DNA from: Rhizophagus irregularis
Taxonomy: Eukaryota; Glomeromycota; Glomeromycetes; Glomerales; Glomeraceae
Reading direction: 5' to 3'
Assembly (NCBI RefSeq): GCF_026210795.1
Contig: NC_089448.1
Coordinates: 372,001 to 436,000 of the forward strand
Length of the DNA stretch: 64,000 nt
Position numbers and translations under genes: made by a program. The notes beneath the pieces are model-generated. The model saw nothing but the letters and a program-made list of their open reading frames with translations. It was not told the DNA's origin and searched no databases. Of this stretch, positions 9,574 to 64,000 are shown piece after piece. Each line of letters opens with the position of its first letter. Within the stretch, counting starts at the first letter, position 1.

Positions 9574-11070
9574 TCATATTTTAAAGTCCATATTTATCAC
9601 ATTTTCAAAAGATTCACATCTAAAATCTTTAATTACTCCATCATTTTTATATTTATTAACCAACTTTACAAAATTTTCTTCTTCATAAATAAAATTATTA
9701 CATGTAAGTATAGAAAGTTTAGGTCGACTTCTCCATTTTTCTAAAAATTCTTCCAAGATATCCAAAGAAAATCCCATATCATAAGGAAATCTAATTTCTC
9801 TTAAATTAGTTGGTGCTGATCTAATTAATAATTTTAATAATTCTTTTCCATTTTCTAATTTTTCTTTATTACTCACTAAATATTTATCCATATATATAGC
9901 AAAACATAATGACTTCATATTTTGACAAATTTTTAATAATTTTTCAAACTCATTATAATGTTGTTTTGATGGTGGAAATACAAGAGACAAATATTCAATT
10001 GAAGAACATTTTTCATAAACTTTATGAATAAAATATAGAGTATCATCATAAAAATTTTCAATAATGAAATGATCATCAATTTCATATGATTCTAAAAGGA
10101 TTTTCTTTATATATCCTCCACTATTTTCAATTATAATAGAGGCTGCTTTTAATTCAATATATTTTATTTCAAGCGTCTCAAGATCATGATAAACGCACGT
10201 TTTTAATTGTTCTTCATTAAACTTATTAAAACTAACTCTTAAAGTTTTTAGTTTATGAAATTTTGGGAGTACCTTTTGTGATGTGCGACTAATACATACA
10301 AAGTAAATATTTAAATGATTGATAATATTTGCATTTTTTTCCAGAGCTAAAAGAATCTCTTCGTAATGGTCTGGTTCAGGAACATTATTTGAAAATGGTG
10401 TAAGTAAATCATCATCTATCCATTCAAAATACTTTAAATTTTTCTGAACTCCAATTAGTTCAGCAATCCCATGATAATCAATTGGGTTTTCATTTAAAAT
10501 GATGAGTCTCTGGATATATTGACATAGCTGTGCTAATCCATAAAAATATGAATTATCTATTGATGTGTCACATTTTAATTCATAAAGTGATTCAAAACGA
10601 AGCTTAGCTTCTGGTAAATAAAATATTTGATGTTTAATGGATTTAATATCCAAATACTTTAAATCTTGAAATTTCTTCATAAAGAGACGATAAAATTCTT
10701 GTTGCAAAAGAAATTGATTATAAGCTAAAGATGTTTCAATAAAAGTTATAGTATTCATAGTTTCTGTATTAATACTTTCACAATAAGATAAATAATCAAA
10801 CAAAAGTGGTTGATATGAAAATGATGGTAATTGAACTCCTAGTTTCGTTAAGGATTCTTTAATATCATCAGATAAATAAGAAGCAATGATTATAAATAAA
10901 TAACTTTTATAACTATAATTAATATCATAACACCAAGGATTCCTCCATAAAATTGGAATTGCAACTTCACACCAAAGTCTATTTACCATTAGACATGAAA
11001 AGAGTGATTTTGAATCATTCTGAAATTCTTCAAATATTAGGAAGAGAATATTTTTATTGAACTTTGACAT
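9574..11070 (-). CDS. F-box/LRR-like protein 1
   Basis: A single-exon 498-aa protein. Residues 1-45 form an F-box (NKNILFLIFEEFQ, LFSCLMVNRLW, PILWRNPW), which in known families docks onto Skp1 of an SCF ubiquitin ligase. The remainder has spaced Leu-rich segments (for example PKFHKLKTLRVSF near 270, HDLETLEIKYIELKAASII near 297) like a degenerate LRR superhelix, the likely substrate-binding part. It ends GVIKDFRCESF plus a short tail, shared by all family members here. This is the downstream partner of a tandem pair with the gene at 12237-13727. The start is fixed by the family-wide MSKFNK/MSKLNK N-terminus. The F-box call is firm; substrate and pathway are unknown. Confidence 0.93.
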   Translation of the reverse strand: MSKFNKNILFLIFEEFQNDSKSLFSCLMVNRLWCEVAIPILWRNPWCYDINYSYKSYLFIIIASYLSDDIKESLTKLGVQLPSFSYQPLLFDYLSYCESINTETMNTITFIETSLAYNQFLLQQEFYRLFMKKFQDLKYLDIKSIKHQIFYLPEAKLRFESLYELKCDTSIDNSYFYGLAQLCQYIQRLIILNENPIDYHGIAELIGVQKNLKYFEWIDDDLLTPFSNNVPEPDHYEEILLALEKNANIINHLNIYFVCISRTSQKVLPKFHKLKTLRVSFNKFNEEQLKTCVYHDLETLEIKYIELKAASIIIENSGGYIKKILLESYEIDDHFIIENFYDDTLYFIHKVYEKCSSIEYLSLVFPPSKQHYNEFEKLLKICQNMKSLCFAIYMDKYLVSNKEKLENGKELLKLLIRSAPTNLREIRFPYDMGFSLDILEEFLEKWRSRPKLSILTCNNFIYEEENFVKLVNKYKNDGVIKDFRCESFENVINMDFKI

Positions 11071-11210
11071 TTTTTATTATTCAAAAATAATGAAAAAAAG
11101 GAATCTTTTATAAAATATTTTTTTAATAAAAAAAAAAACCTTTAAAAATGATTTTACAAAACAACGAAATTTTTTTTTTTAAAAAAAAAATAATAATAAT
11201 ACTAAATGGC

Positions 11211-12236: not shown

Positions 12237-13727
12237 TCATATCTTAAAATCCCCATTTACTACATTTTCAAAAGATTCACATCTAAAATCTTTAATTACT
12301 CCATCATTTTTATATTTATTAATCAATTTTACATAATTTTCTTCTTTATAAATAAATCTACATGTAAGTATGGTAATTGCAGGTCGACCTCTCCAATTTT
12401 CAAAAAATTCTTCTAAAACTTCCAAAGAAAATTCAACATCATAAAGAAATCTAATTTCTTTTAAATTAGTTGGTGCTGATCTAATTAATAATTCCAATAA
12501 TTTTTTTCCATTTTCTAATTTTTCTTCAGTTTCTACATCATATGCATTCATATATATAGCTAATAATAATGATTTCAAATTTTGACAAATTTTTAATAAT
12601 CTTTCAAATTCATCAAAATGTTGTTTTGATGGTGGAAATGTAAGAGATAAATATTCAATCAAAAGACATTTTTGATAAACTTTACAAATAAAAATAAGAG
12701 AATCATCATTAAAATTATCTATATAATCATAAAATTCATCAAGTTCATAAGTTGGTCCTAAAAAAATTTTCTTCAAATGACCTTCGCTATTCTCAATTAT
12801 AATAGAAGCTGCTTTTAATTCATAATAATTTATTTTAAGAATCTCAAGATCACGATAAACACACATTTTTAATTGTTCTTCACTAAAAGGCCAAAAATCG
12901 GTTATCAATGATTTTAGTTTATGAAATTTTGGGAGTACCTTTGGTGATGTACGACTAATAAATATAAAATAAATATTTAAATGATTGATAATATTTGCAT
13001 TTTTTTCTAAAGCAAGAAGAATCTCTTTGTAAGAATCACGGTCCGGTCCAGGAGCATATATATCATGATCATCCTTCCATTCAAAATAATTTAAATTTTT
13101 CTGAACTCCAATTAATTTAGCAACTGAATGATAATCAGTCGGGTCTACATTAATAATAATAAGCCTCTGTATATATTGACATAACTGTGCTAATCCATAA
13201 AAATATGAAGAATCTATTGATGTATCACAAGTTAATTCAGAAAGTGATTCAAAACGAATCTTAGCGTCCGGAAAATAAAATATTTGATGTTCAATTGATC
13301 TCATATCCAAATACTTTAACTCTGGAAATTTTTTCATAAAGAGGCCATAAAATTCTTGTTGCAAAATAAATTGATTATATGATAACGGTGATCCAATAGA
13401 AGTTATAATGTTTATAATAGCTATATTAATACTTCTACAAAAGGATAAATAATCAAACAAAAATTGTTGATATGAAAATGACGGTAATTGAATTCCTTGT
13501 CTCGTTAAGGATTCTTTAATATCATCAGATAAATAAGAAGCAATAATTGTAAATAAATAATTTTTATTATGATAGTTAATATCATAGCACCAAGGATTCC
13601 TCCATAAAACAGGAATCACAGTTTCACACCAAAGTCTATTAACCATTAGACATGAAAAGAGGGATTTTGAGTCATCTCGTAATTCTTCGAATAATAAGAA
13701 TAGAATATCTTTATTGAGTTTTGACAT
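12237..13727 (-). CDS. F-box/LRR-like protein 2
   Basis: A single-exon 496-aa protein closely related to the gene at 9574-11070 and in the same orientation, about 1.2 kb upstream of it, so the two are a tandem duplication. The F-box is at residues 1-45 (NKDILFLLFEELRDDSKSLF, NRLWCETVIPVLWRNPW). The middle has Leu-rich segments (QKNLNYFEW, PKFHKLKSL, HL-KIFLG) and the C-terminus has APTNLKEIRFLYDVEF and GVIKDFRCESF. By family knowledge it is an SCF adaptor. The ORF is intact. The antisense reading over its 3' end (12219-12416) is a shadow. Confidence 0.93.
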   Translation of the reverse strand: MSKLNKDILFLLFEELRDDSKSLFSCLMVNRLWCETVIPVLWRNPWCYDINYHNKNYLFTIIASYLSDDIKESLTRQGIQLPSFSYQQFLFDYLSFCRSINIAIINIITSIGSPLSYNQFILQQEFYGLFMKKFPELKYLDMRSIEHQIFYFPDAKIRFESLSELTCDTSIDSSYFYGLAQLCQYIQRLIIINVDPTDYHSVAKLIGVQKNLNYFEWKDDHDIYAPGPDRDSYKEILLALEKNANIINHLNIYFIFISRTSPKVLPKFHKLKSLITDFWPFSEEQLKMCVYRDLEILKINYYELKAASIIIENSEGHLKKIFLGPTYELDEFYDYIDNFNDDSLIFICKVYQKCLLIEYLSLTFPPSKQHFDEFERLLKICQNLKSLLLAIYMNAYDVETEEKLENGKKLLELLIRSAPTNLKEIRFLYDVEFSLEVLEEFFENWRGRPAITILTCRFIYKEENYVKLINKYKNDGVIKDFRCESFENVVNGDFKI

Positions 13728-13849
13728 TCTTTATCCAAAAATAATGAAAAATAAGTAAAATATTTTTTAAGAAGGAAACTTTAGAATAATTTTATAATAA
13801 AAATGACGAAATTTTTTTTTTTTTAGGAAAAAAAAGAATTAATAATAAA

Positions 13850-15703: not shown

Positions 15704-17969
15704 TCAAAATCCATCTAAAGATAAAAAATAACAAATTATAGATTATTTATTTGCTTTTGTAAAGAAATTCATTTTTTACTTTATTTTAAGAGCTTACCAT
15801 CAGGAATTTCCAATTCATCTTGTTCATTTGAATGAAGGTTTGGATTATTATATAAATCGTCATCATCTGTAAGAGAAAAAAAATTAAAACAGTATTAAAA
15901 ATCGTTCGTAATTACGTAAAATATTCACCTACCATCGACATATTTTTGAGTTTTTTCTTTTTTGTCATCTAAATTTTAAATAAAAGTCACGTTTAATAAA
16001 TGAAATTGATATATATGGTAACTTTATTTGTTAGTAATTTACTTACTATTAGACTTTATTTGCAACTTTTTAAATAATTTAGATAATTTTTTATTACTAT
16101 CTAAATATTAAGATATAGATTTAATATATAAATCAATCTCGATTCATCAATAATTAAAATATATTACCTCTAAAAATAGTAATTACTTTTGATGATTTGC
16201 TACTATTCTGCTCATTCGATTTATTAAAGTCGTTAACTAAAATAAAAATTAATTATTAAACATCATTATATGATAATTCAACGCTATAATGTTATTAAAT
16301 ACTTACTATTGTTAGGAATGTTAAAATCATACGATTTACTATGAAACACTATTAGTAGTAAAATAAACTAAATTATTATAGTAAATCAAAAAATGGTAGA
16401 AATCATTATTTGTACGGTTATACCTTCTTGTTCTTCTATTATAATAAAAAAAAATAACATTAATAATGTATTTTAAAATAAATATATTCATTAATAAAAT
16501 ATATACACTTGTACCTTCTGTAGCATTTCTTGGTTCATGTAGATTTCCAAAGTTATGAATTTTACTTGTAAATAATCTGCTACTCGTATAATTTTCTTCT
16601 ACTTTATTCATTTCTAAATTATCCATTTCTGATTTGAATAATTCATCTGACATATTTTGATAATATAAATTAATTTTTTCTATTTTTTTACAAAGTGTAT
16701 AAGCGTCAGGTCTTTTTAATGGATCAGCATCCCAACATTCTTTCATTAAATTTTTATATTCTAATGGAGTTCCTGGCACAATTTTTGGTCTTATACCGTT
16801 AATAATATTCATTACAATATCATTTTCATGTTCATAATTTACAAATGGTGGTTGTCCAGATGAAATTTCCCACATAAGAATTGCAATACTATAAATATCA
16901 GATGCAAAAGTATATTCTCTTCCAACAATAACTTCGGGTGCTATGTAAGGAAGATTTCCATATATACTTTCTGATGGTTTATCAGCAGGTCCACAAAATC
17001 CAAGATCACTGACACGCCAGGAATTATTAAGTTGAGAATATAATATATTTCCAGAATGCAAATCTCTATGAATTGCTTTCTCTTTATGAATAAAATAAAG
17101 TGCACAAATTATTTCATTAATAATTATCATTCTATCTTTCCATGTAAGTTGTTTATGATTTTGTTGTAAATATTTTCTTAAATCTACACTCATTTCATTC
17201 ATTACAAGCATATAATTTCCATTTGATGGATTTTGCGTTAAACCAAAACATTGAATAACTCTCGGCCATTTATTACTTATTGTTAAATGTGATTTAGCCT
17301 AAAAGATAATAATTTGTAAAGATACAAGTGTTAATACAAAAAATTACAACAATTTTATAAAATATAGAATACAATAATACAAACCTCTTCAAACCAACTT
17401 TGATTTGCACTTTCAACATTTTCTAATTTTTTAAGCACTATAGCACGATTTCCAAGTCTCGTTAATTGTTTTTTTTCAGAATCCCATTCATCATAATGTC
17501 CATCAATCCAACCTGCTGTATAAATTTCAGAAAATCCACCTTTTGTTAAATATTTAATATCTTCTAAATTACTATATGGGATCCATTCAACAATCGTTTG
17601 TGGATTAAGTGATTCCATTTGACATTTCTGTATTAAATTATCAATATCATCATTTCCAGATGTCCAATTTGAAAAATCTTCTTTTAAATAATTTCGAACA
17701 CAATATTCACAATATAATGTGGCTAAACATTCTTGCTTACAATTTTCACAAACTCTTTTTGTTCCTGAATTATAGCTAACTTTATCTCGATCATAACTTT
17801 TAGTTAACCATCTTATTGCATAAGTTTTTTCATCATTTGTAAGAATTTTATCGGCAAAGACTGTTTGCTTTTGAAATTGTTTGTGTATATCATTGTAAAT
17901 ACTAGTATCTGTTAATGTCATTGCTCTATTAATTGTTGCATGAATTAATTCATATCGAAGAGTGGACAT
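15704..17969 (-). CDS. Protein kinase-like, nine exons with microexon tail
   Basis: Exons (minus): 17969-17385, 17298-16515, 16435-16424, 16348-16307, 16236-16168, 16100-16047, 15968-15933, 15866-15798 and 15714-15704. They join without a stop into 553 codons. The N-terminus has two Cys pairs (CENC at 74-77, CEYC at 87-90, a possible zinc site), then NWTSGNDDID and EWIPYSNLEDIKY. Kinase features follow: glycine loop KGGFSEIY (about 143-150), VLKK (Lys about 170), HRDLHSGN (Asp about 274), DLG in place of DFG (about 293), and YIAPE (about 317). The C-lobe is followed by YTSRLF and a tail made of exons of 12, 42, 69, 54, 36 and 69 nt, rich in Asp, Ser, Asn and Lys. HRD, Lys and the loop suggest activity, although DLG is unusual. 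The substrate is unknown. The exon 1/2 junction falls between the C-helix and strand 4. Confidence 0.88.
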
Positions 17970-18068
17970 AATGAATGAATTATTTTAAGTTCGGTTCACT
18001 TGAATTCCGTGATAAATTAGTAAAATGCAAATTGATGATCAAAACTTCATGTTGTGCCCACATAACTT

Positions 18069-25128: not shown

Positions 25129-28100
25129 TTACAATTTACCATCTTTGTTATTATTCAATTGAGAAATATCAATCTGTAAAGATTCTATTTAACAAAACAA
25201 ATTTATTAATATTTATAAATCTCAATATATTCTATAAATATTTAATTGTTACCTGAACATTCCATGCTTATTATGTCATCATTTTGTTCGTAAACAGAAT
25301 TTTTTTGTTCAGAAAGATTATTATCACTAATGTTCAATCGAGAAACATCATTTCGTTGAGATAATGATACTATTTATAATAAATAATATTTTATTAGCAT
25401 TCTTTTATAATTATTTTAAATATTTTTTATTAAACAATACCTGCAGTTTCAATGCTAATTATATTATCATTTTGTTTATAATAATCATCAGAATTTTTTG
25501 GTTCAGGAAGATTATTAAAATTAAGTAATCTACTTGTATAAGTATCTTCCGAGTGTGTTTTATATGATAATCCTGAACAAGTTGCAAGTTTAATATTATT
25601 TGATGAATTATTGTTTACTACATCTGCTTCTTTAATTTGTGCTTGTAATTCTATCGTTTGTTTGTTAGTTGATTTATATTGCCATATGTATAAAATATCT
25701 CTAATTTCTTCCGCTTTTGGTCTATTTGATGGATTTGCATCCAAGCATCTTTTAATTAAATGCACAATTAATTGAGGTACTTTAATATTAAACCTTGGTC
25801 TAATTCCATTACAAATTTTTATTGCTAAACATTCATCATGTCTCATATCATGATATGGAGGTAATCCAGAAATTACTTCATACATAATTATACCAAAACT
25901 ATAGATATCTGCAGCTTTTGTATAAATTTTTCCCTGTAAAATTTCAGGAGCTATATAAGTCAAAACACCATATACGTTATTTTTTTGCATATCACAATTT
26001 GCAGGTTTACACAATCCCATATCAGTTATAGCAGTTTTATATTGAAACTTTAATATATTGCCAATATGCAAGTCTCGATGAATCAAATCATTTTCATGAA
26101 TAAATTCAAGTTCAGTTATAATTTCATTTAAGCAAATAATTTTACTTTTCCAATTTAATTTATTGAAATTTTTGTCTAAATATTTTCGTAAACTTCCATC
26201 ATCTGCATATTCCAAAACCATTACATAATTATTTGTTTCTGGATCTTGAGTTATCCCATAAAATTTGACACTTCCATGATCAAATTCTACTTCATGATGA
26301 AATATCAACTAGTACATATAAAAAGCATGAAAAATGATATTAGAAAATTAAAATTATTAAAAATTTTATTAAGTAATAAGTATTCATACCTCATTCATAA
26401 AGTCTAATGTAATATTTTTTGAATCATTTAAATTTTTCAGAGCTACAAACATATTTTTATCTTGTCTTTCCCAGTTATTATTATATTTATCCCATTTATG
26501 AATATACCCATCAATCCAGTTTGCTTTATATATTTTGCTAAATCCACCTTTTGCAATATATTTAATATTGTAAAATCTATCATAAGGTATCCATTCTAAT
26601 GCACTTGTAGTATATTTATGGGCTGATAGCTGTGTATCTTGAATAAATCTATCGATATCATTATTACTGCTAGTCCAATTTTTAAAATCTTGTTGATAAT
26701 GTGTTACATTACATTCATAATTACATTTTTTACAAGTATTATTCAAAATCATCATATAATTCTTTGTTTGTGGTTCCTGAGTTATTCCATAAATTTTATG
26801 TATTGTAGTCTACAAATATAGTACATTAGTGAAATCAAATTACTTAAAACTTTACAAATAATAAATTTATTATACCTTACTATTCTCAAATTCTGATACA
26901 ATAGTTTCTATAATGTTAAAACATTTCAGAATCACATATATATTTTGATCTTTTCTTTCCCAACTTTGATTTTTATAATCCCAATCATATACATATCCAT
27001 CAATCCAATTTGTTATATACACTCCAATTTTTTCAATATACTTAATATCATTAAATCTATTATATGGAATCCATTCCAATGCCCCTTTTGTGCTATAATG
27101 AGCTGAAAGCTGAGTTCCTTGAATAAATTTATCAATATCATCATTACCACTGGTCCAACTTTCGAAATTTTGTTGAAAGTATATTGCATTACATATATAA
27201 TTACATTTTTTGCATTCATCACTCAAAATAATCATATAATTTTTTGTTTGAGAGTCCTGAGTTATACCATAAATTCTATTAACCTACAAATATAATACAT
27301 AGCAAACATGAAAAATTATAAATTTTCAAAATTTAATTAAAATAATAAATTTATTATAGTACCTTATTAGTCAATTCTAACTCAATATTTTTTGGATTAT
27401 TTGAACTTTTCAAATCTACTAAATCTACTGACATATTTTCACCATTTCTCTTCCAATTTTGATTTTTATGATCCCATTCACAAATATATCCATCAATCCA
27501 ATTTGCTCTATACACTTTTTTTTCTGCAATATATTTAATATCATGAAATTTATCATAAGGTATCCATTCTAATGCTTCCTTTATGCTAAAATGAGTCAAT
27601 AGCTGAGTGTCTTGAATAAATTTATCAATATCATCATTACCACTTGTCCAACTTTCAAAGTTTTGTTGAAAGTGTATTGCATTACATACATAATTACACC
27701 TTTTACATTTATTAATTAGAACCATTATATAATTTTTTGTTTTTGGATCTTGAGTTATTCCATAAAGTCTATTAATCTACAATTATATAATACATAGTAA
27801 AAATTAAAAATTTTAAAAATTTAATTAAAAATAGTAAATTTATTTTACCTCATTAGTACTTTCTAAATTAATATTTTTTGGATTATTTAAACTTTTCAAA
27901 ACTACCAATATGTTTCTATCATGTCTTTTCCAATTTTCACTTCTACTATTCCAATAAATAATACATCCATCAATCCAATTTGCTCTATACACTTTTTTTT
28001 CTTCAATATATTTAATATCATGAAATTTATCATAAGGTATCCATTCTAATGCTCCTTGTGTGCTATAATGAGCCATTAGCTGAGTGTCTTGAATAAATTT

Positions 28101-31100
28101 ATCAATATCATCACTACCACTAGTCCAACTTTTAAAATTTCGTTGAAAGTGTATTGCATAACATACACGGTTACATTCTTTACATTTATTATTCAATACC
28201 ATCATATAATCTTTTGTTTGTGGATTTTGAGTCACTCCATAAACTATATAATCTATTTTAAGCTATAAAATATAACATGTTAGCAAAAATAGCAAAATTA
28301 AAACTTCAAAATTTCAATAATACCTTATCCATAAATTCCAATGTAGCATTTTTTGGGTCATTTAAATATTTCAAATCTATCAACATGTTTTGGTTGAACC
28401 TTTTCCAATTTTGAATTTTATTATCCCATTCATAAATATATCCATCAATCCAATTTGCTCTATATACTCCAATTTTTTCAATATATTTAATATCATGAAA
28501 TCTATCATAAGGTATCCATTCTAATGCTTCTTTTGTGCTATAATGAGCCAATAGCTGAGTGTCTTGAATAAATTTATCAATAACATCATTTCCACTAGTC
28601 CAACTTTTAAAATTTTGTTGAAAATATTTTGCACCACATAAATAATTACATTCTTTACATTTACCAATCAGAACCATCATATAATTTTTTGTTTTTGGAT
28701 CTTGAGTTATTCCATAAAGTCTATTAACCTACAAATATAATACAATATAAAAATTAAAAATTTAAAAATTTAATTAAAAATAATGAATTTATTATTATAG
28801 TACCTTATTAGTTAATTCTAATTTAATATTTTTTGGATTATTTGTACTTTCCAAATCTACCAAATCTACTGACATATTTTCACCATTTCTCTTCCAATTT
28901 TGATTTTCATTATCCCATTCATATATATATCCATCAATCCAATTTGCTCTATAAACTTTTTTTTTTTCAATATATTTGATGTTACAAAATCTATCATAAA
29001 ATATCCATTCTAATACATTTGAAGTATATTTATGGGCTGATAGTTGAGTATCTTGAATAAATTTATCAATATCATCATTACCACTAGTCCAACTATCAAA
29101 ATTTTGTTGAAAGTGTATTGCATTACATATATAATTACATATTTCACATTTATCACCCAAAACCGTCATATAATTTTTTGTTTGAGGGTCCTGAGTTATA
29201 CCATAAATTCTGTTAACCTACAAATATAATACACAGCAAAAATGAAAAATTATAAATTTTCAAAATTTAATTAAAAATAATAAATTTATTATAATACCTT
29301 ATTAGTTATTTCTAATTTAATATTTTTTGAACTTTTCAAGTCTACCAAACCTACTGACATATTTTCGTCATTTCTTCTCCAATTTTGATTTTCATTATCC
29401 CAATCATATATATATCCATCAATCCAATTTGCTCTATACACTGTTTTTTTCACAGTATATTTAATATTATGAAATCTATCATAAGGTATCCATTCTAATA
29501 CTCCTTTTATGTTATTATAATGGGATAATAGCTGAGTATCTTGAATAATATTATCAATTTCATCATTACCACTAGTCCAACTTTCAAAGTTTTGTTGAAA
29601 GTGAATTGAACTACATACATGATTACATAATTTACATTTATCACTTAAAACCATCATCATCATATAATTTTTTGTTTGTGGATCTTGAGTTATTCCATAA
29701 AGCCTATTAATCTACGAGTATAAGTCATTATTAGCAAAAATTAGACTTTTCATAATTCTAAATAAATAACATATTTTACCTTATTCTTAAATTCTAATTT
29801 AATATCTTTTGGATTAATTAAACTTTTCAAAACTACCAACATGTTTTTATCATATCTTTTCCAATTTTTATTTCTACTATCCCATTTATAGATATATCCA
29901 TCAATCCAATTTGCTCTATACACTTTTTTTTCTGCAATATATATAATATTACGAAATCTGTCATAAGGTATCCATTCTAATACTTCTTTTATGTCACTAT
30001 AATGAGATGATAGCTGAGTATCTTGAATAAATTTATCAATATTATCATTACCACTGGTCCAACGTTCAAAGTTTTGTTGAAAGTATATTGCATTACATAC
30101 AAACTTACAATTTTTACATATATCACTCAGAACCATCATATAATTTTTTGTTTTTGGATCTTGAGTTATTCCATAAAATCTATTAACCTACAAATATAAT
30201 AATACACAGTAAAATTAAAAATTTTAAAAATTTAATTAAAAAATAATAAATTTATTATACCTCATCAGTAAATCCTAATTTGATACTTTTTGGATTATTT
30301 AAACTTTTCAGATCTACTGACATATTTTTACCATATCTTAGCCAATTTTGATTTTCATAATCCCATTTATAGATATATCCATCAATCCAATTTGCTCCAT
30401 ACATTTTTTTTTTCTTAATATATTTAATATCATGAAATTTATCATAAGGTATCCATTCTAATACTCCTTTTATATCAATATAATGGGATGATAGCAGAGT
30501 ATCATGAGATAATAGCTGAGTATCTTGAATAATATTATCAATTTCATCATTACCACTAGTCCAACTTTCAAAGTTTTGTTGAAAGTGAATTGAACTACAT
30601 ACATGATTACATAATTTACAATTGTCACTCAAAACCATCATATAATTTTTTGTTTGAGGATCTTGTGTTATACCATAAATTCTGTTAACCTACAAATATA
30701 ATACACAGCAAAAATGAAAAATTATAAATTTTCAAAATTTAATTAAAAATAATAAATTTATTATAGTACCTTGTTAGTTAATTCTAATTTAATATTTTTT
30801 GGATTATTTGAACTTTTTAAGTCTACTAAACCTACTGACATATTTTCGCCATTTTTTCTCCAATTTTGATTTTCATTATCCCATTCGTAAATATATCCAT
30901 CAATCCAATTTGCTCTATACACTTTTTTTTCCTCAATATATTTAATATCACGAAATCTATCATAAGGTATCCATTCCAATGCCCCTTTTGTGTTATAATG
31001 AGCCGATAGCTGAGTACCTTGAATGAATTTATCAATATATTCATTACCACTTGTCCAATTTTTGAAATTTTGTTGAAAATATATTGCATTACATTTAAAT

Positions 31101-31153
31101 TTGCATTTTTTGCATTTCTTATCAAGTTTTAGTTTTTTAATTAATGTGTCCAT
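25129..31153 (-). CDS. Kinase with ten serial N-lobe repeats and one C-lobe
   Basis: Thirteen exons (minus): 31153-30770, 30689-30261, 30187-29780, 29711-29298, 29217-28804, 28728-28324, 28262-27849, 27776-27363, 27283-26876, 26809-26390, 26308-25441, 25369-25253 and 25184-25129. They join into 1,716 stop-free codons. Exons 1-10 each encode one kinase N-lobe unit: strands 4-5 of the previous lobe (YGITQDP, NYMMVL; absent in exon 1), a CKKC motif, F-NWTSGNDDIDKFIQ-TQL, ALEWIPYDRF-IKYI and ANWIDGYIYEWD. In units 1-9 the loop is shortened (IAEKKVYRANW, IEKIGVYRANW). Unit 10 keeps KGGFSKIYKANW and VALK, and its exon ends FMNE. Exon 11 is the C-lobe with HRDLHIGN, DMG and YIAPE; exons 12-13 are an acidic Asn/Ser tail. 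It is presumably one active kinase behind nine pseudo-N-lobes; whether all units stay in the mRNA is unknown. The start at 31153 is the first ATG of the first unit. Confidence 0.8.
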
Positions 31154-31629: not shown

Positions 31630-32640
31630 TTTTTTATTGGCTTTTTTTTATAAACAATTTTTGTAGAGAATTTTTATTTTTAATATAGGCAAAGGCTTTT
31701 TTTGATAGAATTCTTTGGGAATTTTTTTAATAAAAAGATTTTTTTGATAAAAAATTTCGTTAGATATTTTTTTCATTGATAGGGACATTTCTGAGTTTTT
31801 TTTTTTGATGGATAATTTCGTTAAAAAATTTATTTGATAGAAATTCATTGGAGAATTTTTTTTTTAATAAGATTTTTTTTTTTGACATACTGTATGCCTA
31901 ATTTTGTCAGAAATTTTTTTAACAAGTGAGATTTTTTTTGATAGAGAATTTCGTTAAGAATTTTTTTTTTTAATAAGAGGGAATTTTCCTTGATAAAGAA
32001 TTTCTTTTGGGAATTTTTTTTTAATAGGTGAAAGTATTTTTTGACGGAGAATTTATTAGAGAATTTTTTTTTAATAGGTGGATTGTTTTGATAGAGAATT
32101 TCATTAAAGAGTTTTTCTTTAATAGGAAAATAAATAATTTCGCTGAGAATTTTTTTTTTTGATAGAATTTTTTTTTTAATTGGTAAAATATTTTTTTTTG
32201 ATGGATCATTTCGTTAGTAAATTTTTTTTAACAGGGGAGAATTTTTTTTTGATAGGGAATTTCGGTAAAGATTTTTTTTTTTAGTAGGAGGGGAGTTTTT
32301 TTTGATATAAGAAATTCTTTTGAGAATTTTTTTTAATAAGAACCTTTGAATTTTTTTTTAATAGGGAAAATGTGTTTTTTGACGGGAGATTTTCGTTAGA
32401 AATTTTCTTTAATAGGGGATAATTTTTTTGATTGAGAATGTTATTAGAGAATTGTTTGTTGAAATTTTTTTTTATTTTTTTTGATGGAGAATTTTGTTTA
32501 GAAATCTTAATAGAAAATTTTATTGAAAATAGTTTTTTTTTAATAAGGGTATCGAGAATTTTGGCTTGAAATTTTTTTTTTAATAAAGAATTTCATTAGA
32601 GATCTTTTTTTTATTGAAAATTTATTTATTAAATTTATAA
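31630..32640. repeat. T-rich minisatellite, about 1 kb
   Basis: Dozens of imperfect units built on GAGAATTTTTTTTTAATAGG and TTTTTGATAGAGAATTTCGT, with spacing of about 40-60 bp. The strand is strongly asymmetric: T and G dominate on plus and C is nearly absent. The region 32641-33190 continues as T-rich AT sequence without the periodicity. Short ORFs called here are artefacts of the bias. Confidence 0.8.
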
Positions 32641-33679: not shown

Positions 33680-34100
33680 GATCATTTTTTTATTTTTTGT
33701 CTCTCATCATTTTTCTCATTACTTCTCATCATTCCATCCTTTCGTCTCCATCATTTTCTATTACATCGTTTTTTTTTTCCATTATCTCTTTTTCTCTCCT
33801 GTTTACTTCCCATTATCTTTTTGTCTCTCGTTACTCCTTTTCGTCTCCCATCACTCCTCTTCATCTTCCCATCACTTCTTTTTGTCTCTCATCACTTCTC
33901 TTCGTCTCTAACCACTCCTCTTCGTCTCCCATCACTTATTTTCGTCTCCCATCACTCCTTTTCGTCTCCCATCACTTCTCTTCGTCTCCCATCACTTCTG
34001 TCGTCTCCCATCACTCATTTTCATCTCTCATCATATCCTATTTCTCCTTTTTGTTTCCTATCACTTCTCATTACTCTTTTTTACACCCTTTCATCTTCTA
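33680..34100. repeat. 20-bp polypyrimidine tandem repeat
   Basis: The unit CGTCTCCCATCACTTCTCTT recurs at 20-bp spacing, best preserved at 33840-34025, with degenerate units on both sides. The plus strand is almost purely C/T with few A. The region is open in several frames at once (ORFs of 164-178 aa), but a 20-bp period rotates the frame every unit, so none looks maintained as protein. At 33297-33380 a GGTATATTT...TTTTTAGG pair could be an intron of a transcript leading into the repeat; unproven. Confidence 0.8.
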
Positions 34101-38578: not shown

Positions 38579-40060
38579 TTAAGAATCCACACTCATAATA
38601 TTTATTAAATTTATAAAAAATTCACATCTAAAATCTTTAATTACTCCATTATTCTTATGTTTAATAATCAAATTTTTATAATTATCTGCGTTATAAGTAG
38701 GGTCGATTGTAAATATAGAAAGTGCAGGTCGGTCTCTCCATTTTTCTAAGAATTCCTCCAATGCTTCAAAAGAAAATTTATAATCATAAAGAAATATAAT
38801 TTCTCTTAGACTAGTTGGTGCTGATCTTACTAATATTTTTAATAAGTCGTCTCCAATTTCTAAAAGATTTTTTTCTTCAGTTATTACTTTTTCCATGTCA
38901 CACACAATTAATAATAATGACTTCAAATTTTTACAAACTTTTAGTAAATTTTCAAATTCACTAAAATGCCTCTCTGATGGTGAAAATGCAAGAGGTAAAT
39001 ATTCAATTGAAGGACAATTTTCATAAATTTTACGAGTAAAAACAAGGGTATCATCATTAAAGTTATCTATAAAATCAAGTTCATAAGATACTAATAAAAA
39101 CTTTTTTAGTCGTCCTCCACTATTTTCAATTATAATTGAAGCTGCTTTCAAATCATAATAATCTATTTTAAATATCTCAAGATCATGATAAACACACATT
39201 TTTAATTGTTGTTCGTTACAGTAACTAAAATCATCAATTATTAATGTTTTTAGTTTACGAAGTTTTGGGAGTACCTTTTGCAATGTTCGATCATTATGCA
39301 TAAAAATCATTTTTAAATGATTAATAGTATCTGCCTTTTTTACTAATGCGAGAAGAATTTCTTTATAAGGGTCAACATTAGAACTATAATAGTAACGATC
39401 ATCCTTCCATTCAAAATACTTTAAATTTTTTTGAACTTCAATTAATTTAACAATTCCAAGATTAGCTTCTTTGTCTATGTTATTAACAATGGTGAGCTTC
39501 TGTATATATTGAGAAATACGTGCTAATCCATAAAAGTATGAAAAGTCAATAGACGTATCACATTTTAATTCATAAAGTGATTCAAAACGAAGCTTAGCTT
39601 CTGGAAAATAAAATATTTGATGCTCAATTGATTTCATATCCAAATACTTCAATTCCGGACATTTCTTCATAAAGACACCATAAAATTCTTGTTGTAAAAA
39701 CAATCGATGATTCGTTGAAGAAGATCCAGTAGAAATTATAGAGTTTATAATAGTTATATCAACACTTCTACAGAAAGATAAATAATCAAACAAAAGTGAT
39801 TGATATGAAACTAATGGTTTTTGTATTCCTAGTCTTGTTAGGAATTCTTTAATATCATCAGATAAATATGAAGTAATAATTATAAACAAATAATCTTTAT
39901 TATTATAATTAATATCATAGCGCCAAGGATTTCTCCATAAAATTGGAATCAAAGTTTCACACCAAAACCTATTGACCATTAGACTTGAAAAGAGGGATTT
40001 CGAATTATCCTGTAATTCTCCAAATATTAAGAAAAGTATATCTTTATTAAGTTTTGACAT
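38579..40060 (-). CDS. F-box/LRR-like protein 3
   Basis: Intact single-exon 493-aa protein. F-box at residues 1-45 (NKDILFLIFGELQDNSKSLF, NRFWCETLIPILWRNPW); Leu-rich segments (PKLRKLKTLIIDDF, HDLEIFKIDYYDLKAASII, RLKKFLLVSYEL), then APTSLREIIFLYDYKF and GVIKDFRCEFF. It is the first member of a tandem segmental duplication whose further units start near 40.95 and 43.7 kb. Its 3' flank (TTCAATTTTGTCATACGAAA) matches those of the other units. Predicted SCF substrate adaptor; target unknown. Confidence 0.93.
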   Translation of the reverse strand: MSKLNKDILFLIFGELQDNSKSLFSSLMVNRFWCETLIPILWRNPWRYDINYNNKDYLFIIITSYLSDDIKEFLTRLGIQKPLVSYQSLLFDYLSFCRSVDITIINSIISTGSSSTNHRLFLQQEFYGVFMKKCPELKYLDMKSIEHQIFYFPEAKLRFESLYELKCDTSIDFSYFYGLARISQYIQKLTIVNNIDKEANLGIVKLIEVQKNLKYFEWKDDRYYYSSNVDPYKEILLALVKKADTINHLKMIFMHNDRTLQKVLPKLRKLKTLIIDDFSYCNEQQLKMCVYHDLEIFKIDYYDLKAASIIIENSGGRLKKFLLVSYELDFIDNFNDDTLVFTRKIYENCPSIEYLPLAFSPSERHFSEFENLLKVCKNLKSLLLIVCDMEKVITEEKNLLEIGDDLLKILVRSAPTSLREIIFLYDYKFSFEALEEFLEKWRDRPALSIFTIDPTYNADNYKNLIIKHKNNGVIKDFRCEFFINLINIMSVDS

Positions 40061-40194
40061 CCTTAATCCAAAAATTGGGAAAACTTTTTTAGAACAATTC
40101 TATTATAATTGTTAAAGTTATTTCTAATAATTTTGAATTTTTTTTTTTTAAAGGACAAAAAAAATGGAAAAAATAAAATGTGTATAAGCGGAAC

Positions 40195-41829: not shown

Positions 41830-42856
41830 GGATCCATGCATAAAATATTTATTAAGTTTGTGAAATAATCACATCTAAATAATCAAATTTATATAATTCG
41901 GTCGGCCTCTCCATTTTTCTAAGAATTTCTCCAAAGCTTCCAAAGAGAATTTAAAATCATAAAGAAATCTAATTTCTCTTAGACCAGTACTTCGCCAATA
42001 ATTTCTAAAAGATTTTTTCCCCAAATTATTTGTCCTTCCGGGTCACACACAATTAATGTTAATAACTTCAAATTTTGACAAAATTTAGCAAATTTTCAAA
42101 TTCACTAAAAAAATGTTTCTTTGACGGTGAAAATTCAAGAGTCAAATATTCAATTGAAGGACAATTTTCATAAATTTTATGAATAAGAATAAGGGAATTT
42201 TTAAAAAAGTTATCTACAAAAGTTCATAAGATACTACTAAAAATTTTTTAAGTCGTCCTCCACTAAGGTTGGTTGCCGTAAGTAACGATCATTATATATC
42301 GAATTATAATCTTTAGCGGTTGTAATATTATAAACGTAAGCCGTAAATTGGCTGTAAATACTAAATACTACATTGTTGTTTCAAAACGAATATTAGCTTC
42401 TGGAAAATGAAATGTTTGATGTTCAAGCAATTTCATATCCAAATATTTCAATTCTGGACATTTCTTCTTTAGCAAAGCATCAATTGCTTTTACAAGAATT
42501 TTATGGTGTCTTTATGAAGATTTGATAGAAATTATAGAGTTTATAATTTTTACGAAAATACTTTACAGAAAGATAAATAATCAAACGTAAGTGATTTGTG
42601 AAACTAACGGCAATTGTATTCCTAATATTGTTAGAAATTCTCTAGTATCATCAGATAAATAGGAAGTAATAATTGTAAATAAATAATCTTTATTATAATT
42701 AATATCATAGCACCAAGGATTTCTCCATAAAATTGGAATCCCAGCTTGACACCAAAACCTATTGATCATTAAACATGAAAATAGGGATTTCGAATCATCC
42801 TGTAATTCTCCAAATATTAAGAAGAGAATATCTTTATTAAGTTTTGACATCCTCAA
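41830..42856 (-). pseudogene. F-box gene copy, inactivated
   Basis: Starts like the intact genes (MRMSKLNKDILFLIFGELQ; NRFWCQAGIPILWRNPW), open to about codon 91 (42581-42856), then breaks. Downstream pieces align with the family at lower identity with frameshifts and internal deletions (near 42240-42400, where the middle third is missing). About 1.03 kb instead of 1.49 kb. It belongs to the second unit of the segmental duplication. Confidence 0.85.
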
Positions 42857-43114
42857 CCAAAAAATTAGGAAAACTTTTAGAACAAATCTATTATAATCGT
42901 TAAGGTAATTTTTTATATAATTATGAAATTTTTTTTTTAAAAAAAAAAGAAAAAAAAATATGCATATTAAATAAGGTTTGTTGTTCTGTGCGATAGTGAT
43001 GACAAATCAAACATTAAGCAGCTCTGCAGCCCTCAGCCAAATGATCGACATTTTTATTAAATTAGAATGTAGTGCACGGCCACATTCGATTACTCCACTG
43101 TTTTTTTTATTTAT

Positions 43115-44489: not shown

Positions 44490-45977
44490 TTAATATATAG
44501 GATCCATATTCAAAATATTTATTAAATTTATGAAATAATCACATCTAAAATCTTTAATTACTCCATTATCCTTATATTTATTAATCAAATTTTTATAATT
44601 TTCTCCTTTATAAATAGGGTCAATTGTAAGTATGGTAATTGCAGGTCGACCCCTCCATTTTTCTAAGAATTCCTCCAAAGCTTCCAAAGAGAATTTAAAA
44701 CCATAAAGAAATCTAATTTCTCTTAGACTGGTTGGAGCTGATCTAGCTAATACTTTTAATAAATCTTCTCCAATTTCTAAAATATTTTCATCTCCAGTTA
44801 TTACTCTTTCCATGTCACACAAAATTAATGTTAATAATTTCAAGTTTTGACAAACTTTTAGTAAATTTTCAAATTCACTAAGATGTTTCTTTGATGGTGT
44901 AAATGCATGTGACAAATATTCAATTAAAGGACAATTTTCATAAACTTTACGAATAAAAATAAGAGAATCTTTTTCAAAATCATCTACATAATCATCAAGT
45001 TCATAAGATACTAAAAAAAATTTTTTTAGGCGTCCTCCACTATTTTCAATTATAATTGAAGCTGCTTTCAAATCATAATAATCTATTTTAAAGATCTCAA
45101 GATCATGATAGACACACACTTTTAATTGTTCTTCACTAAAATTCCTAAAACTAGTTATTAACGTTTTTATTTTATGAAATTTTGGGAGTACTTTTTGCAA
45201 CGTGTGATCTAAACATTCTAAATATATTCCTAAATAATCGATAGTATCTGCCTTTTTTTCTAATGCAAGAAGAATTTCTTTATAAGGATCTACTTTAGAA
45301 ATATAACCATCAAAAAAATCTACCCATGCAAAATGCCTTAAATTTTTTTGAACTTCAATTAATTTAACAATTCCTAAGTTAGATTCTTCGTTTGTAATAT
45401 TAATAATCATGAGTTTCTGTATATGTTGACAAATTCGTGCTAATCCATAAAAGTATGAAACGTCAATAGACGTATCACATTTTAATTCATAGAGCGATTC
45501 AAAACAAAGCTTAGCTTCTGGAAAATGAAATATTTGATGCTTAAGTGATCTCATATCAAAATATTTCAATTCTTGACAATTCTTCATAAAGACAACACAA
45601 AATTCTTGTTGTAAAAACAATTGATGGTTTGTTGAAGAAGATCCGGTAGAAATTATAGAGCTTAAAACATTTATATCAACATTTCTACAGAAAGATAAAT
45701 AATCAAACAGAAGGGATTTGCGTGAAACTAATGGTTTTTGTATTCCTAATCTTTTTAGGAATTCTTTAATATCATCAGATAAATAAGAAGCAATGATTAT
45801 AAATAAATAATCTTTATCATAATACTTAATATCATAGCACCAGGGGTTCCTCCATAGAATTGGAATCACAGTTTCACACCAAAACCTATTAACCATTAGA
45901 CATGAAAATAGGGATTTCGAATCATACTGAAATTCTTCAAATATTAAGAAAAGAATATCTTTATTAAGTTTTGACAT
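44490..45977 (-). CDS. F-box/LRR-like protein 4
   Basis: Intact single-exon 495-aa protein, third unit of the duplication and most similar to the gene at 38579-40060 (shared KFFLVSYEL, HDLEIFKIDYYDLKAASII, EEFLEKWRGRPAITILT). F-box at residues 1-45 (NKDILFLIFEEFQYDSKSLF, VIPILWRNPW); ends GVIKDFRCDYF. The middle differs most between paralogues (residues about 60-130 and 225-275), as expected if that face binds changing targets; this is inference. Start chosen by family N-terminus. Confidence 0.93.
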   Translation of the reverse strand: MSKLNKDILFLIFEEFQYDSKSLFSCLMVNRFWCETVIPILWRNPWCYDIKYYDKDYLFIIIASYLSDDIKEFLKRLGIQKPLVSRKSLLFDYLSFCRNVDINVLSSIISTGSSSTNHQLFLQQEFCVVFMKNCQELKYFDMRSLKHQIFHFPEAKLCFESLYELKCDTSIDVSYFYGLARICQHIQKLMIINITNEESNLGIVKLIEVQKNLRHFAWVDFFDGYISKVDPYKEILLALEKKADTIDYLGIYLECLDHTLQKVLPKFHKIKTLITSFRNFSEEQLKVCVYHDLEIFKIDYYDLKAASIIIENSGGRLKKFFLVSYELDDYVDDFEKDSLIFIRKVYENCPLIEYLSHAFTPSKKHLSEFENLLKVCQNLKLLTLILCDMERVITGDENILEIGEDLLKVLARSAPTSLREIRFLYGFKFSLEALEEFLEKWRGRPAITILTIDPIYKGENYKNLINKYKDNGVIKDFRCDYFINLINILNMDPIY

Positions 45978-46089
45978 TCTTTACCCAAAAATTAAGAAAA
46001 ATCTTTTATAATAAATCTATTATAATTGTTAAGGTTATTTTTAATATAATTCTGAAATTTTTTTTTTTAAAAAAAAAGAAAAAAAAAGC

Positions 46090-48935: not shown

Positions 48936-49043
48936 CTCATTTGATTTCGTTTAAAAAATTTTTAAACAATTTTTTAAATATTACGAAAAATTATATTTAA
49001 GGATATTTACTATTAATAGACCAAATCATATGTTATTTTAAAA

Positions 49044-60690: not shown

Positions 60691-63600
60691 CTAGATGTAT
60701 AAATAGCTTGTGTATGAGTAGTCAATTGGTTTACTTTCAATCATTAAAAGATTTTCTTTTCTATGTTCTTGAGTCTGTTCAAATTGTTTTCTAATTTCAT
60801 AATGATGTTCTTGTGCTGTTCGACAGCTCCCATTTAACAAATTATAAAATAAGTAAATCAATTCTTTTATTTCAACAGATCCCGGTCTATTGTCTGGATC
60901 TAAATTCCAACATTTTTTCATCAAGTCAATATAGCATTTTGGTGCAATTTTCTCATTTAATTCAGGCCTAACTCCACTGTATATATTTAATATTAGAGAC
61001 TTATCATGAGCACAATTAGCAAAAAGTTGTTTTCCAGTTGCAACAACGTACATAATCATACCAAAACTGTATATATCTGCTGCTCGAGTATAAGGTTTTC
61101 CTTTTAATACTTCAGGTGCCACGTAAGGCATAACTCCATAAATATTTGTTTTATCAGTATCTCCAATTTTTCTAAATAATCCTATATCAGAAATACATGC
61201 TTCATAACGATCATTAATATGATTATAATTATAATTAATATAATCTTTATCACCAGGATCCATTTTTGTAAATAATATATTTCCAATATGAAAATTACGA
61301 TGAACTATGTGATTTTGATGAATTTCATTAAGTCCATTAATAATATTAGCTAATGCACTTAATCCCTTAAGCCAATCAAAACTTTCGTGATTTTTTACTA
61401 GATAATTATTGAAAGTTCCACCTTCTGCATATTCAAATACCATAATATAATCATTTGTATTCGGATTTTGAGATATTCCATATATTTTAAGAATATTTTC
61501 CATTGATCTATTTGAGTATATTTTAACCTATTAGATAGTAATTTAATTTTAATAATTTTATATTATTACTGAAAAAAAAAAATTATGAAGAAATTACTTA
61601 CTTTATTTATAAATTCATCAAGAAAATTTTTGGAATTATGTAAACATTTCAAAGCAACTTTTGCATTTGGTTTTCTTTCCCATTTATATTCTTGTTTTCT
61701 TATTCCTTTCCATTGATGATTGATTTTTTTATCATATAATAAACCATCCTTCCATATTGCTGAATATACTGTAGAATAACATCTTTTACCTATTTCTCTA
61801 ATATCATCAAACTGATCATATGATATCCATTCAAATAATATTGTACCGCATATTTTAATGTTATAATCATTATTAATTAATCTCATTTCTTGAATCAAAT
61901 CATTAATTTTTTTGTTTTCATGACTTGTTTGACATGATGTACAACTTTTATTATTTATTTCAAGTTCACTATCATATTTTTTACCACATTTTTCACAATA
62001 ATATTTATCTTGAGAAACCAAAATATAATCATTTGTATTTGGATCTTGAGATATTCCATAACTCTCCTTAATTAAATATTTAATCTGTTAAATATAATAA
62101 GTTTATAAAGTTAAATCATTTATAAATAAATGGAAATAATAATGTTATGCAGGTGCGTTGCAACACACCTGCGTATAAATTTTAAATTACTTTCAATTTA
62201 TAGAAATTAGTACATACCTCATTTAAAAATTCATTATTACAAAAGCTTTGTGAATTATTTAAATATATTAATACAGCTTTCTCATTTAATTTTCTTTTAT
62301 ATTTCTTAGTTCTTTTACTATAATGTAATGATCCTTCCCTCCGTATTGCCGTAAAAATTCCACTTTTTCCTATTTCATTAACATTAATGAACTTATTATA
62401 TGGTATCCATTCAAATATCATATCATCACAATTATTAATTTTTAATTGTGTATTTTGAATTAAAATATTAACCTTCTCATTTCCGCTAGTCCAGTTTATA
62501 AAATTAATTTTTAAATGATTCATTTGACATAATTTACACCACTTTTCAAAATCACTATATTTAAATTCATAATTTTTCCCACATTTTTCACAATGAGTTT
62601 CATAATAATAATCGGAAAAAATCAAGATATAATCATTTGTATCTGGATCTTGAGATATTCCATACCCAATTTCTTTTTCAATCTATCAATATATATATAT
62701 ATATATAAAAATTAGTATTATTTAATATAATGATTAAAATTAAAGAAATTTAATTACCTTATCTATAATTTCTTCATCATTAGAATATTGTAGATAACTT
62801 AATGAAACTTTCACATATGATGTTCTTATCCATTCTTTTTTTTTAGTATCACAACGTAATGGACCATTTTTCCATATTGCTGTAGTTAAACAATTATCAC
62901 CTATTTCATTAACATCAATAAATTCATTGTATGATATCCATTCAAATATATCCCCATATCCATCATATTTTAATTGTATTTCTTGAATAAAATTATCAAT
63001 TTTTTCATTTCCACTAGTCCAATTTGTAAGATTATTTTTTAAATAATCACTTTGACATGATTTACATAATTCACGATTATATCTATCACCACATTTTTTA
63101 CAATAAAGATCAGAATATTCATTAATAAATACCAAAATATAAACTTTTGTATCTGGATTTTGAGATATTCCATAACATCCTGTTATTAAATATGATTCAA
63201 CCTATAAAAAATTAATATGCATTTATTAATATTCAAAACTAAATAAACTAAATTCATAGAAAATTTTTAATACCTTATTTATAAATTCATTAGTAATATT
63301 TTGTTAAATCATATAAATATTTTAAACAAACTTTTTCATATGAATTTCTTTTCCATACATCATTCCTCGTTTCATAATGTAAAAAACCATCTTTCCATAT
63401 TGCTTCAGTAAATCCTACTTTTTCATTTATCTCTTTAATTTCAATAAATTTACTGTATGGTATCCACTCAAATAATGTTTTATAACCCTTAATATTATTA
63501 AGTTTTAATTGCTTTTCTTGAATAAAATTATTAATTATTTCATTTCCACTAGTCCGGTTTGTAAGATTATTTATTGCATGATTTATTTGACATGGTTCAC

Positions 63601-64000
63601 AGTAATAATATTCAGTATATTCATTACCACATTTTTTACAATTATTCGTAAAATAATAATCGGAATAAACTAAAATATAATCTTTTGTAACTGGATCTCG
63701 AGACATCCCGTAGCATTCCTTTGTTAAATATGATTCAATCTATTAAAATACAAAAAAAAAAATGAAATTAATATATCTATTTAATACTCAAACTAAATCC
63801 ATAGAAAATTTTATTAACCTTATTTATAAATTCATCAGAATCATATAGATATTTTAAACAAACTTTTTCATATGATGAACTTCTTATCCATTCCTTTCCA
63901 ATATAGGATAATTTACCTTCTCCCCATGTTGCTCTAGTTAAACAATTATTCCCTATTTCTTTAACATCAACAAACTTATTGAATGGTATCCATTCAAATA
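60691..64000 (-). CDS. Second serial N-lobe kinase, 3' part, probable pseudokinase
   Basis: Partial; the 5' end lies beyond 64000. Exons (minus): beyond 64000-63819, 63739-63274, 63201-62758, 62682-62218, 62084-61602 and 61527-60691. The first five are N-lobe units with CEKCGKKY/CKKCGDRY and CKSCQ Cys pairs, NWTSGNE-I-NFIQE, FEWIPYNKF and AIWKDGLLHY, each starting with YGISQDP of the preceding lobe. The last unit keeps KVALK but has IGKRCYSTVY, not a proper glycine loop. The final exon is a C-lobe in which the catalytic Asp is Asn (HRNFHIGN; codon AAT) and DFG is DIG; YVAPE is present. Catalysis is therefore unlikely. Exon 63739-63274 is 466 nt, one base off, with a stop near its end: a frameshift or an assembly error. 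The tail also ends early; YTSRLL continues in another frame (about 60700). Confidence 0.75.
62149..62172. other. 24-bp palindrome in a kinase intron
   Basis: GCAGGTGCGTTG followed by CAACACACCTGC; the arms match at 11 of 12 positions. It sits in the intron between exons 62682-62218 and 62084-61602, a GC-rich island in an AT-rich intron. Possibly a footprint of a small insertion; no target duplication identified. Confidence 0.6.

Follow-up and report, generated by a model that had tools for sequence, protein, structure and literature searches.

Serial kinase N-lobes ahead of a single C-lobe: a probably widespread gene design in Rhizophagus irregularis

In the JAK kinases, a pseudokinase domain (JH2) is placed ahead of the kinase domain (JH1). 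JH2 is a full two-lobe domain present in a single copy, and it restrains the kinase until it is displaced. The tandem kinase proteins of cereals, among them Pm57, Lr9, Yr15 and Sr62, combine a kinase with a degenerate kinase unit within a single chain; both are whole domains, two in the protein described in the accessible parts of PMC11153570. The same parts report looser constraint on the pseudokinase of Pm57/Lr9 (ratio of nonsynonymous to synonymous substitution rates, Ka/Ks, 0.77 vs 0.14) and propose a decoy role. The gene considered here lies at positions 25129-31153, on the minus strand, of a window of 64,000 nucleotides (C20:372001-436000) from the fungus Rhizophagus irregularis, and it encodes ten N-lobes followed by one C-lobe. 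Like the JAK kinases, it has degenerate kinase units N-terminal to a predicted active one, but no C-lobe lies between the units and the gene is not of the JAK type. Nor does it hold the two or more two-lobe domains of a tandem kinase protein. In these fungal genes of the window type, repetition is confined to the N-lobe, of which most genes read have 6-13 copies to a single C-lobe.

Kinase genes are abundant in R. irregularis, with 2,533 reported (PMC10234402) and a repertoire figure of about 28% of annotated genes given elsewhere (PMC3886924). The kinase domain PF07714 is the most frequent motif among rapidly expanded genes (PMC6123716), high-copy kinase genes have been noted (PMC8647823) and the expansion of the family is also covered in PMC4219462. 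The accessible parts of these five papers describe the expansion but not N-lobe arrays, and no description of such arrays was found in a literature search, mainly of openly accessible papers. Ordinary R. irregularis kinases share with the window gene the same kind of CxxC-WTSGN-EWIPY module, the intron position and the C-lobe. They differ in having one N-lobe per C-lobe, as in 12 of 15 sampled C-lobes. The HNWD/STAND receptors of Podospora anserina are also a fungal family in which homogenised in-frame repeats are attached to one signalling domain; these combine WD40 repeats with a NACHT domain and have four positively selected repeat codons (PMC1805685 and PMC2873952, accessible parts).

The sequence-only reading of the window had joined 13 GT-AG exons without a stop into 1,716 codons, and an independently rebuilt spliced model agrees with it to the base, with ten serial N-lobes and one C-lobe again recovered. 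The gene runs from 31153 to 25129 (C20:397,129-403,153). Its introns are 61-81 nt long, every one GT...AG, and the joined exons amount to 5,151 nt including the stop, with zero internal stops. Exon 1 (30770..31153) contains the start Met, a CxxC module and N-lobe 1, with no beta4-beta5 ahead. This and the next eight N-lobes lack catalytic features and are referred to as dead. Exon 2 (30261..30689) contains beta4-beta5 of lobe 1, a CxxC module and dead N-lobe 2. Dead N-lobes 3 to 9 follow in exons 3 (29780..30187), 4 (29298..29711), 5 (28804..29217), 6 (28324..28728), 7 (27849..28262), 8 (27363..27776) and 9 (26876..27283). The intact N-lobe 10 is in exon 10 (26390..26809), and exon 11 (25441..26308) holds beta4-beta5, the C-lobe and the start of a C-terminal tail, which continues in exon 12 (25253..25369) and reaches the stop in exon 13 (25129..25184). 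Exons 1-11 have no stops in the reading frame, while the other two frames of the same strand carry 7-48 per exon; the open frame is therefore beyond chance.

Exon and lobe are out of register. A repeat exon begins with beta4-beta5 of the preceding N-lobe (YGITQDPxTKNYMMVL), proceeds through CxxCxxxC, WTSGN..IDxFIQ and EWIPY, and ends with beta1-beta3 of the next N-lobe; the hinge and C-lobe are skipped. A complete N-lobe therefore requires two adjacent exons. The stretch EWIPYDRF ahead of beta1 resembles the WEIP stretch of RAF and plant TKL kinases. Protein identity of exons 2-7, 9 and 10 to exon 8 is 60-78%. A Pfam scan of exons 1, 8, 10 and 11 (4 of 13; the other repeat exons are similar copies, and exons 12 and 13 are short) found a family above the cut-off in exon 11 alone. 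The lack of such a match in the N-lobe exons may be why these arrays are easily overlooked.

The loss of three Gly-loop residues from each of units 1-9, and the intactness of unit 10, had been noted from the sequence and were confirmed by a residue check. With the deletion in 9 of 9, units 1-9 do not qualify as catalytic N-lobes. In unit 10, KGGFSKIY, VALK and FMNE supply the Gly-loop, beta3 Lys and alphaC Glu, and the C-lobe in exon 11 contains HRDLH, DMG (a variant in which the Asp is kept) and APE. Joined to exon 11, unit 10 covers positions 5-257 of the 258 in PF07714, a full kinase domain. Judged by its motifs, the gene would thus encode a catalytically complete eukaryotic protein kinase through unit 10 and exon 11. 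The top solved-structure match of the joined unit 10 and C-lobe, in two stretches, is a chain named 'Tyrosine-protein kinase', which we take to be a JAK.

The build had been put forward as that of a single gene, which was not borne out. The assembly (146,748,485 bases, 32 contigs) was searched four times, each time with a single protein, a fused unit, as query, and the best 150 scored rows were kept from 3,959, 3,768, 4,415 and 3,980 candidates. Pooled, these rows give at least 450 distinct fused-type exons, a lower bound, at 153 loci (6-kb joining) on 25 of the 32 contigs. Joining at 3 kb produced 159 clusters, which stand as a proxy for genes; 107 had two or more matches and 52 had one. The candidate view of the window gene as unique is rejected by these numbers. 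They point instead to a class of multi-N-lobe kinases spread over the genome, so that the window gene is probably no oddity but one example of a widespread design that has not been described before. Contig C2 appeared enriched in multi-N-lobe loci, with 38 of the 159 clusters, many at 4.86-5.86 Mb.

C-lobes were sampled from a PF07714 ranking (best 145 scored of 4,199 candidates) by taking every seventh exon with a match starting at profile position 48 or later, which gave 15 loci. Three had arrays (L005 with at least 12 units, L009 with 9 and L012 with 10) and 12 had one N-lobe; this share is only rough and no genome estimate, because all three arrays are on C2 and the list is score-ranked. 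Thirteen further loci were picked for an array-like look, and their unit numbers are for that reason unrepresentative. With both arrays of the window and a gene in L015 that has two units, the sampled and picked loci brought the multi-N-lobe genes read to 19. They hold 171 units by hand count, with split and double matches merged: 6-13 per gene, and 2 in L015. The second window array (60691..63998, minus strand) is a gene of the same build with 6 N-lobe units by hand count and one C-lobe (60691-61527); its first two units run past the window end to about C20:436,624 (locus L001).

The order of exon types is constant in the arrays whose ends lie in the retrieved DNA: a first exon without beta4-beta5, then repeat exons, then one C-lobe exon. 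L005 extends upstream of the retrieved DNA, such that its 'first' unit is not a true first, and L019 extends downstream, with its C-lobe outside the sample. A script permitting any phase modelled 163 of the 173 junctions, and all 163 were in phase 0. The exon ended in AG at 152 of these introns, the donor was GTA in 157 and the acceptor TAG in 154. Intron lengths are spread evenly modulo 3 (56/54/53) and the exons are nonetheless in frame, so the kept frame is again beyond chance. Two of the ten unmodelled junctions come from a broken single-lobe gene in L001. Four have other causes (an ordinary intron with beta4-beta5 below threshold in L005, an insertion-enlarged intron in L017 and, at two junctions of L023, a GC donor and an overlapping frame) and four are lesions (L005, L009 twice, L023). 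Modelled introns of 142 nt (L024) and 130 nt (second window array) are probably wrong models around frameshifts. All 16 array start exons examined have an in-frame Met 3-21 residues ahead of the profile match, a count which leaves out L019 and the second window array and takes the nearest of two in L022. Of 18 array C-lobes, 17 have the HRD motif (16 recognised by pattern and L023 by eye); the exception is the second window array.

Some variation in intron structure was seen. In L017, the closest relative found of the window gene, the first intron (L017:690-894) has grown to about 200 bases by an insertion that by eye appears palindromic and resembles a miniature inverted-repeat transposable element; the splice sites are intact. 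An apparent GC-AG intron is present at L023:1190-1275, while all 163 modelled introns are GT-AG by the rule of the script. In L025 (3580-4476), the first two N-lobe units share one open frame, as if the intervening intron had been lost.

Across the class, the catalytic residues are confined to the last N-lobe. Residues were counted in 181 of 191 core matches; the ten dropped span fewer than 75 profile positions and include the single-lobe gene of L004. The 12 single-lobe rows are 11 from the C-lobe sample and the window's own single-lobe kinase. The Gly-loop GG, beta3 Lys and alphaC Glu occur together in 17 of 18 last units and 10 of 12 single-lobe kinases, but in none of the 151 other units; among last units, only that of the second window array lacks the full set. 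The loss is selective, since beta3 Lys is retained in 129 of 151 dead units, but the Gly-loop GG in 2 and alphaC Glu in 58, where Lys stands in 75; in last units, GG and alphaC Glu are each kept in 17 of 18. The Gly-loop has been lost differently in different genes: EEK---KVY (window, L017), KDEFG(E/K) (L019, L029), KSRFGE (L020), DDR----Y (L021), EKI---GVY (L005, L028 and two window-gene units) and EH or EN-----YT (L024, L025). When dead units are compared with last units between genes of family 1, relaxation is greatest in 14 columns: 62-65, 68 and 69 in the Gly-loop, the A of VALK (99) and seven columns from 102 to 114, towards alphaC. Both kinds of unit in that family retain the CxxC-WTSGN-EWIPY core. 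Dead units therefore look released from catalysis and retained for another job.

Constraint on the frame and on the non-catalytic core can be read from the same alignments. Only 6 of 171 units are broken and the window gene is stop-free, whereas neutral simulation to similar divergence left at least one stop in 89-99% of units. This is not the state of a pseudogene array in which the frame is no longer kept. The lesion check covered failed junctions and introns longer than 95 nt, and lesions sparing both junctions might escape it. Stops occurred in 5 of the 600 search rows (1, 2, 0 and 2 per search). It had been argued from the open frame that the pseudo-lobes are kept as protein; one frame through all units supports their retention as coding sequence. 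The analysis of nonsynonymous to synonymous substitution rates (dN/dS) which that reading had proposed for the units gave a divided answer. With half of the arrays used to pick the most conserved quarter of columns and the remaining half to measure it, dN/dS was 0.13 (0.09-0.17) and 0.14 (0.11-0.18), while whole-unit medians overlap the neutral range, as discussed below. The near-invariant columns are C, C, C, W-T-S, N, D, I, Q, E-W and Y, with a proportion of nonsynonymous differences (pN) of at most 0.05 and of synonymous differences (pS) of 0.25. Between genes of family 1, last units have a dN/dS of 0.38, compared with 0.63 in dead ones.

The nearest neighbour of a last unit is the last unit of another gene in 18 of 18 cases, whereas for 111 of the 151 remaining array units it lies within the same gene, with few columns available and many forks unresolved. 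This fits separate evolution of the catalytic lobe and of an arm that grows and homogenises within its gene. A tree built without the catalytic columns from 66 of the 181 cores (18 last, 10 of the 12 single and two per array; bootstrap not fully settled) rejected a single clade of all dead lobes, with a p value of 0.002 in the approximately unbiased test (p-AU). The dead units of L024-L027 and the second window array fall into one clade with the last units of these genes (support 100/96). In family 1, last units are intermingled with dead ones, and exchange between them is therefore possible. A single origin for all dead lobes is set aside on the p-AU value, with the proviso that gene conversion after one origin may also explain the pattern. 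Dead arms thus appear to have arisen at least twice, or unit exchange has blurred one origin. Unit number differs among close relatives, with 10 in the window gene and 12 in L017. In the proposed course of events, an N-lobe would have been joined, just after beta5, to the start of the CxxC module of a neighbouring kinase. The resulting symmetrical phase 0-0 exon could then have been multiplied by unequal crossing-over with the frame undisturbed, and units away from the C-lobe would have lost Gly-loop and alphaC features, differently in different genes.

The favoured reading, held with moderate confidence, is that the window gene is genuine, has many exons and belongs to a large class found across the genome, and that its arm serves interaction or regulation. 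The build of the class is a start exon with a dead N-lobe, a variable number of dead N-lobe exons, an intact N-lobe exon and a C-lobe exon. The dead units are most likely a repeat-type interaction or regulatory arm of a predicted active kinase, so called because HRD, D-x-G and APE are kept. The last N-lobe and the C-lobe would form the active kinase, and the string of dead lobes would present many CxxC-WTSGN-EWIPY copies to partners, substrates or other kinases of the class, which would give avidity or reach. Decoy-like binding of targets and mere spacing of the kinase had both been suggested for the pseudo-lobes; the kept CxxC-WTSGN-EWIPY part speaks for a module that takes part in interactions and against simple spacing. 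Repeat exons being phase 0-0, skipping or gaining exons would alter the length of the arm with the frame unbroken.

Structure prediction was run on single exons rather than on the joined protein as had been proposed. The AlphaFold2 model of exon 8, from a 12-row alignment of window units, has two strands, two helices and five strands, with a mean predicted local distance difference test score (pLDDT) of 68.7. Foldseek returned no match at E of 0.001 or below (best E 1.2). In VIA-align, the best Z was 2.5, to RIPK2, and 10 of 12 rows were kinases matched over the N-lobe, the other two being mitoribosomal. The intact exon 10, taken as a control, gave a pLDDT of 61.6 and 178 chains at Z of 2 or above; among the best 50 of these, 49 were named FGFR and one receptor tyrosine kinase (Z 2.8-3.5). 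The rows are thus kinase-like but of low confidence. Structure as proof of the fold was set aside, the models being consistent but not decisive, and N-lobe identity rests on sequence and on unit 10.

Several observations weigh against the favoured reading. These weak models and low fold matches (best Z 2.5 and 3.5) are one. The CxxC, present in all 18 last units and in 126 of the 133 internal ones, is found in only 13 of 18 first units. Lesions affect 5 of the 19 genes: a stop in L005, a stop and a frameshift in L009, a stop in L023, a frameshift in L024 and another in the second window array. In that array, the frameshift falls in unit 63293-63739, HRN replaces HRD and the last N-lobe is without GG and alphaC Glu, such that it looks like a pseudokinase or a decaying member. 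Whole-unit dN/dS medians in 17 arrays are 0.45-0.85, only moderately below 1, and with simulated neutral medians of 0.73-1.22, L028 (0.85) is indistinguishable from neutral. Homogenisation between units could also mimic part of the constraint.

A bolder form of the favoured reading is put forward tentatively, as the less probable one. It states that in this arbuscular mycorrhizal fungus the N-lobe half-fold became a repeat domain, at some 150 or more loci with up to 13 or more N-lobes, only the last of them not dead, and that the arm sets recognition by the single active kinase at its end. As a further part of this tentative proposal, the arm would be modular and adjustable by crossing-over and exon skipping. 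Such a signalling or recognition repertoire would, to our knowledge, be without a known counterpart.

Regulation in cis is an unlikely alternative, in which the dead N-lobes bind the true N-lobe or the C-lobe and keep the kinase inactive until displaced, much as JH2 does in the JAK kinases. It draws on the fact that the sole competent N-lobe is the last, covalently joined to the arm. The 'Tyrosine-protein kinase' chain matched by unit 10 and the C-lobe agrees with it too, as kinase homology and not as mechanism. The alphaC-beta4 part is often used by N-lobes for contacts in side-by-side kinase dimers. This stretch is short in the dead units: its median length is 7 residues over 134 internal junctions vs 16 over 18 last junctions (one of these, in L019, being really internal). 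The dead units also have no C-lobe. Up to 13 units would also exceed the need of a cis inhibitor. Competition of the pseudo-lobes with the true N-lobe for the C-lobe, as the earlier reading had suggested, looks less likely for similar reasons: the dead units are shortened at alphaC-beta4 and end at beta5 without a hinge.

It is likewise improbable that the genes encode recognition receptors akin to HNWD, with homogenised and reshuffled repeats, a few diversified surface positions and a kinase output, for recognition of self/non-self or of partners in hyphal fusion or symbiosis. Repeats do resemble those of their own gene most closely in 111 of 151 cases among non-last units, and unit number varies (10 in the window gene, 12 in L017). 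Fast loop columns, identified by a counting method, have dN/dS of 1.46 [1.24-1.71] and 1.30 [0.96-1.61] in held-out halves. However, pS is also high there (0.31-0.32), and in the seven fast columns compared, variability is about equal in last units (column 43, for example, 0.60 in last and 0.52 in dead). The data therefore do not point to array-specific diversifying selection beyond that of the non-repeat copy, which sets these arrays apart from HNWD, and the idea that the fast columns are its recognition sites was dropped. No NACHT/NOD domain appeared in exons 1, 8, 10 and 11, where the Pfam scan returned kinase families only above the cut-off.

More doubtful still is the proposal that the arrays are by-products of unequal crossing-over among tandem kinases, tolerated in frame and of little function. 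It would suit units that are tandem and homogenised, a moderate overall dN/dS, the broken genes and a hugely expanded repertoire (2,533 kinase genes; PMC10234402). Core dN/dS of 0.13-0.14, rare stops and an intact last lobe in 17 of 18 would be unexpected for drifting repeats, with the caveat that homogenisation alone could account for part of this.

That the N-lobe exons or groups of exons are genes of their own, with separate transcripts never reaching the C-lobe, is very improbable. Repeat exons open at an in-frame acceptor with beta4-beta5, a start Met and the absence of beta4-beta5 mark the first exon, and lone exons would be incomplete lobes, as the beta4-beta5 of each lobe sits in the following exon. 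Although tandem repeats are where assemblies fail, an assembly artefact is scarcely credible given that the units differ (60-78% identity to exon 8), that the class is present on 25 of 32 contigs and that the DAOM197198 assembly of R. irregularis (146,773,001 bp, 32 scaffolds) was, in the accessible part of PMC10234402, made from Nanopore reads at 77-85x coverage. The exact unit number of the window gene could nonetheless be off.

Other features of the window were recorded alongside. At 16339..17984 on the minus strand lies a relative of ordinary build, useful for comparison, whose two exons encode a single N-lobe and a single C-lobe. In the C-terminal tail of the window gene (25129-25560; end of exon 11, exons 12 and 13), a short motif seems by eye to be repeated, as SRLLNFNNLPEPKN...NDNIISIE, SRLNISDNNLSEQKN...NDDIISME and ISQLNNNK, and would be a second small exon repeat in this gene. 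T-rich degenerate tandem repeats of about 50 bases (families D7-D9) lie shortly upstream of the gene at 31904-32466, and a 20-base CT-rich tandem repeat, TCTCCCATCACTTCTCTTCG (family D6), at 33806-34095. A local family of single-exon open reading frames (ORFs) of about 496-506 aa, with one 141-aa fragment, contains MSKLNKDILFLIFEELQDDSKSLFSCLMVNRLWCE or a near variant and is F-box-like by eye. Its members are at 9574-11073, 12237-13730, 38579-40099, 42581-43006, 44490-45980 and 49020-50516; a Pfam scan of two of the six found no family above the cut-off.

The accessible parts of PMC6123716, among others, say little about the function of the expanded kinases of R. irregularis. If the genes are expressed as predicted, some of these kinases, possibly a sizeable share, bear a long repeat arm invisible to Pfam. 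Kinase counts and functional guesses made from the C-lobe alone would then miss the main feature, because Pfam misses the scanned N-lobe exons. The arrays may also be seen as a natural experiment in which a catalytic half-domain loses catalysis and keeps a separate structural job, apparently more than once, as the tree rejects a common clade for all dead lobes (p-AU 0.002).

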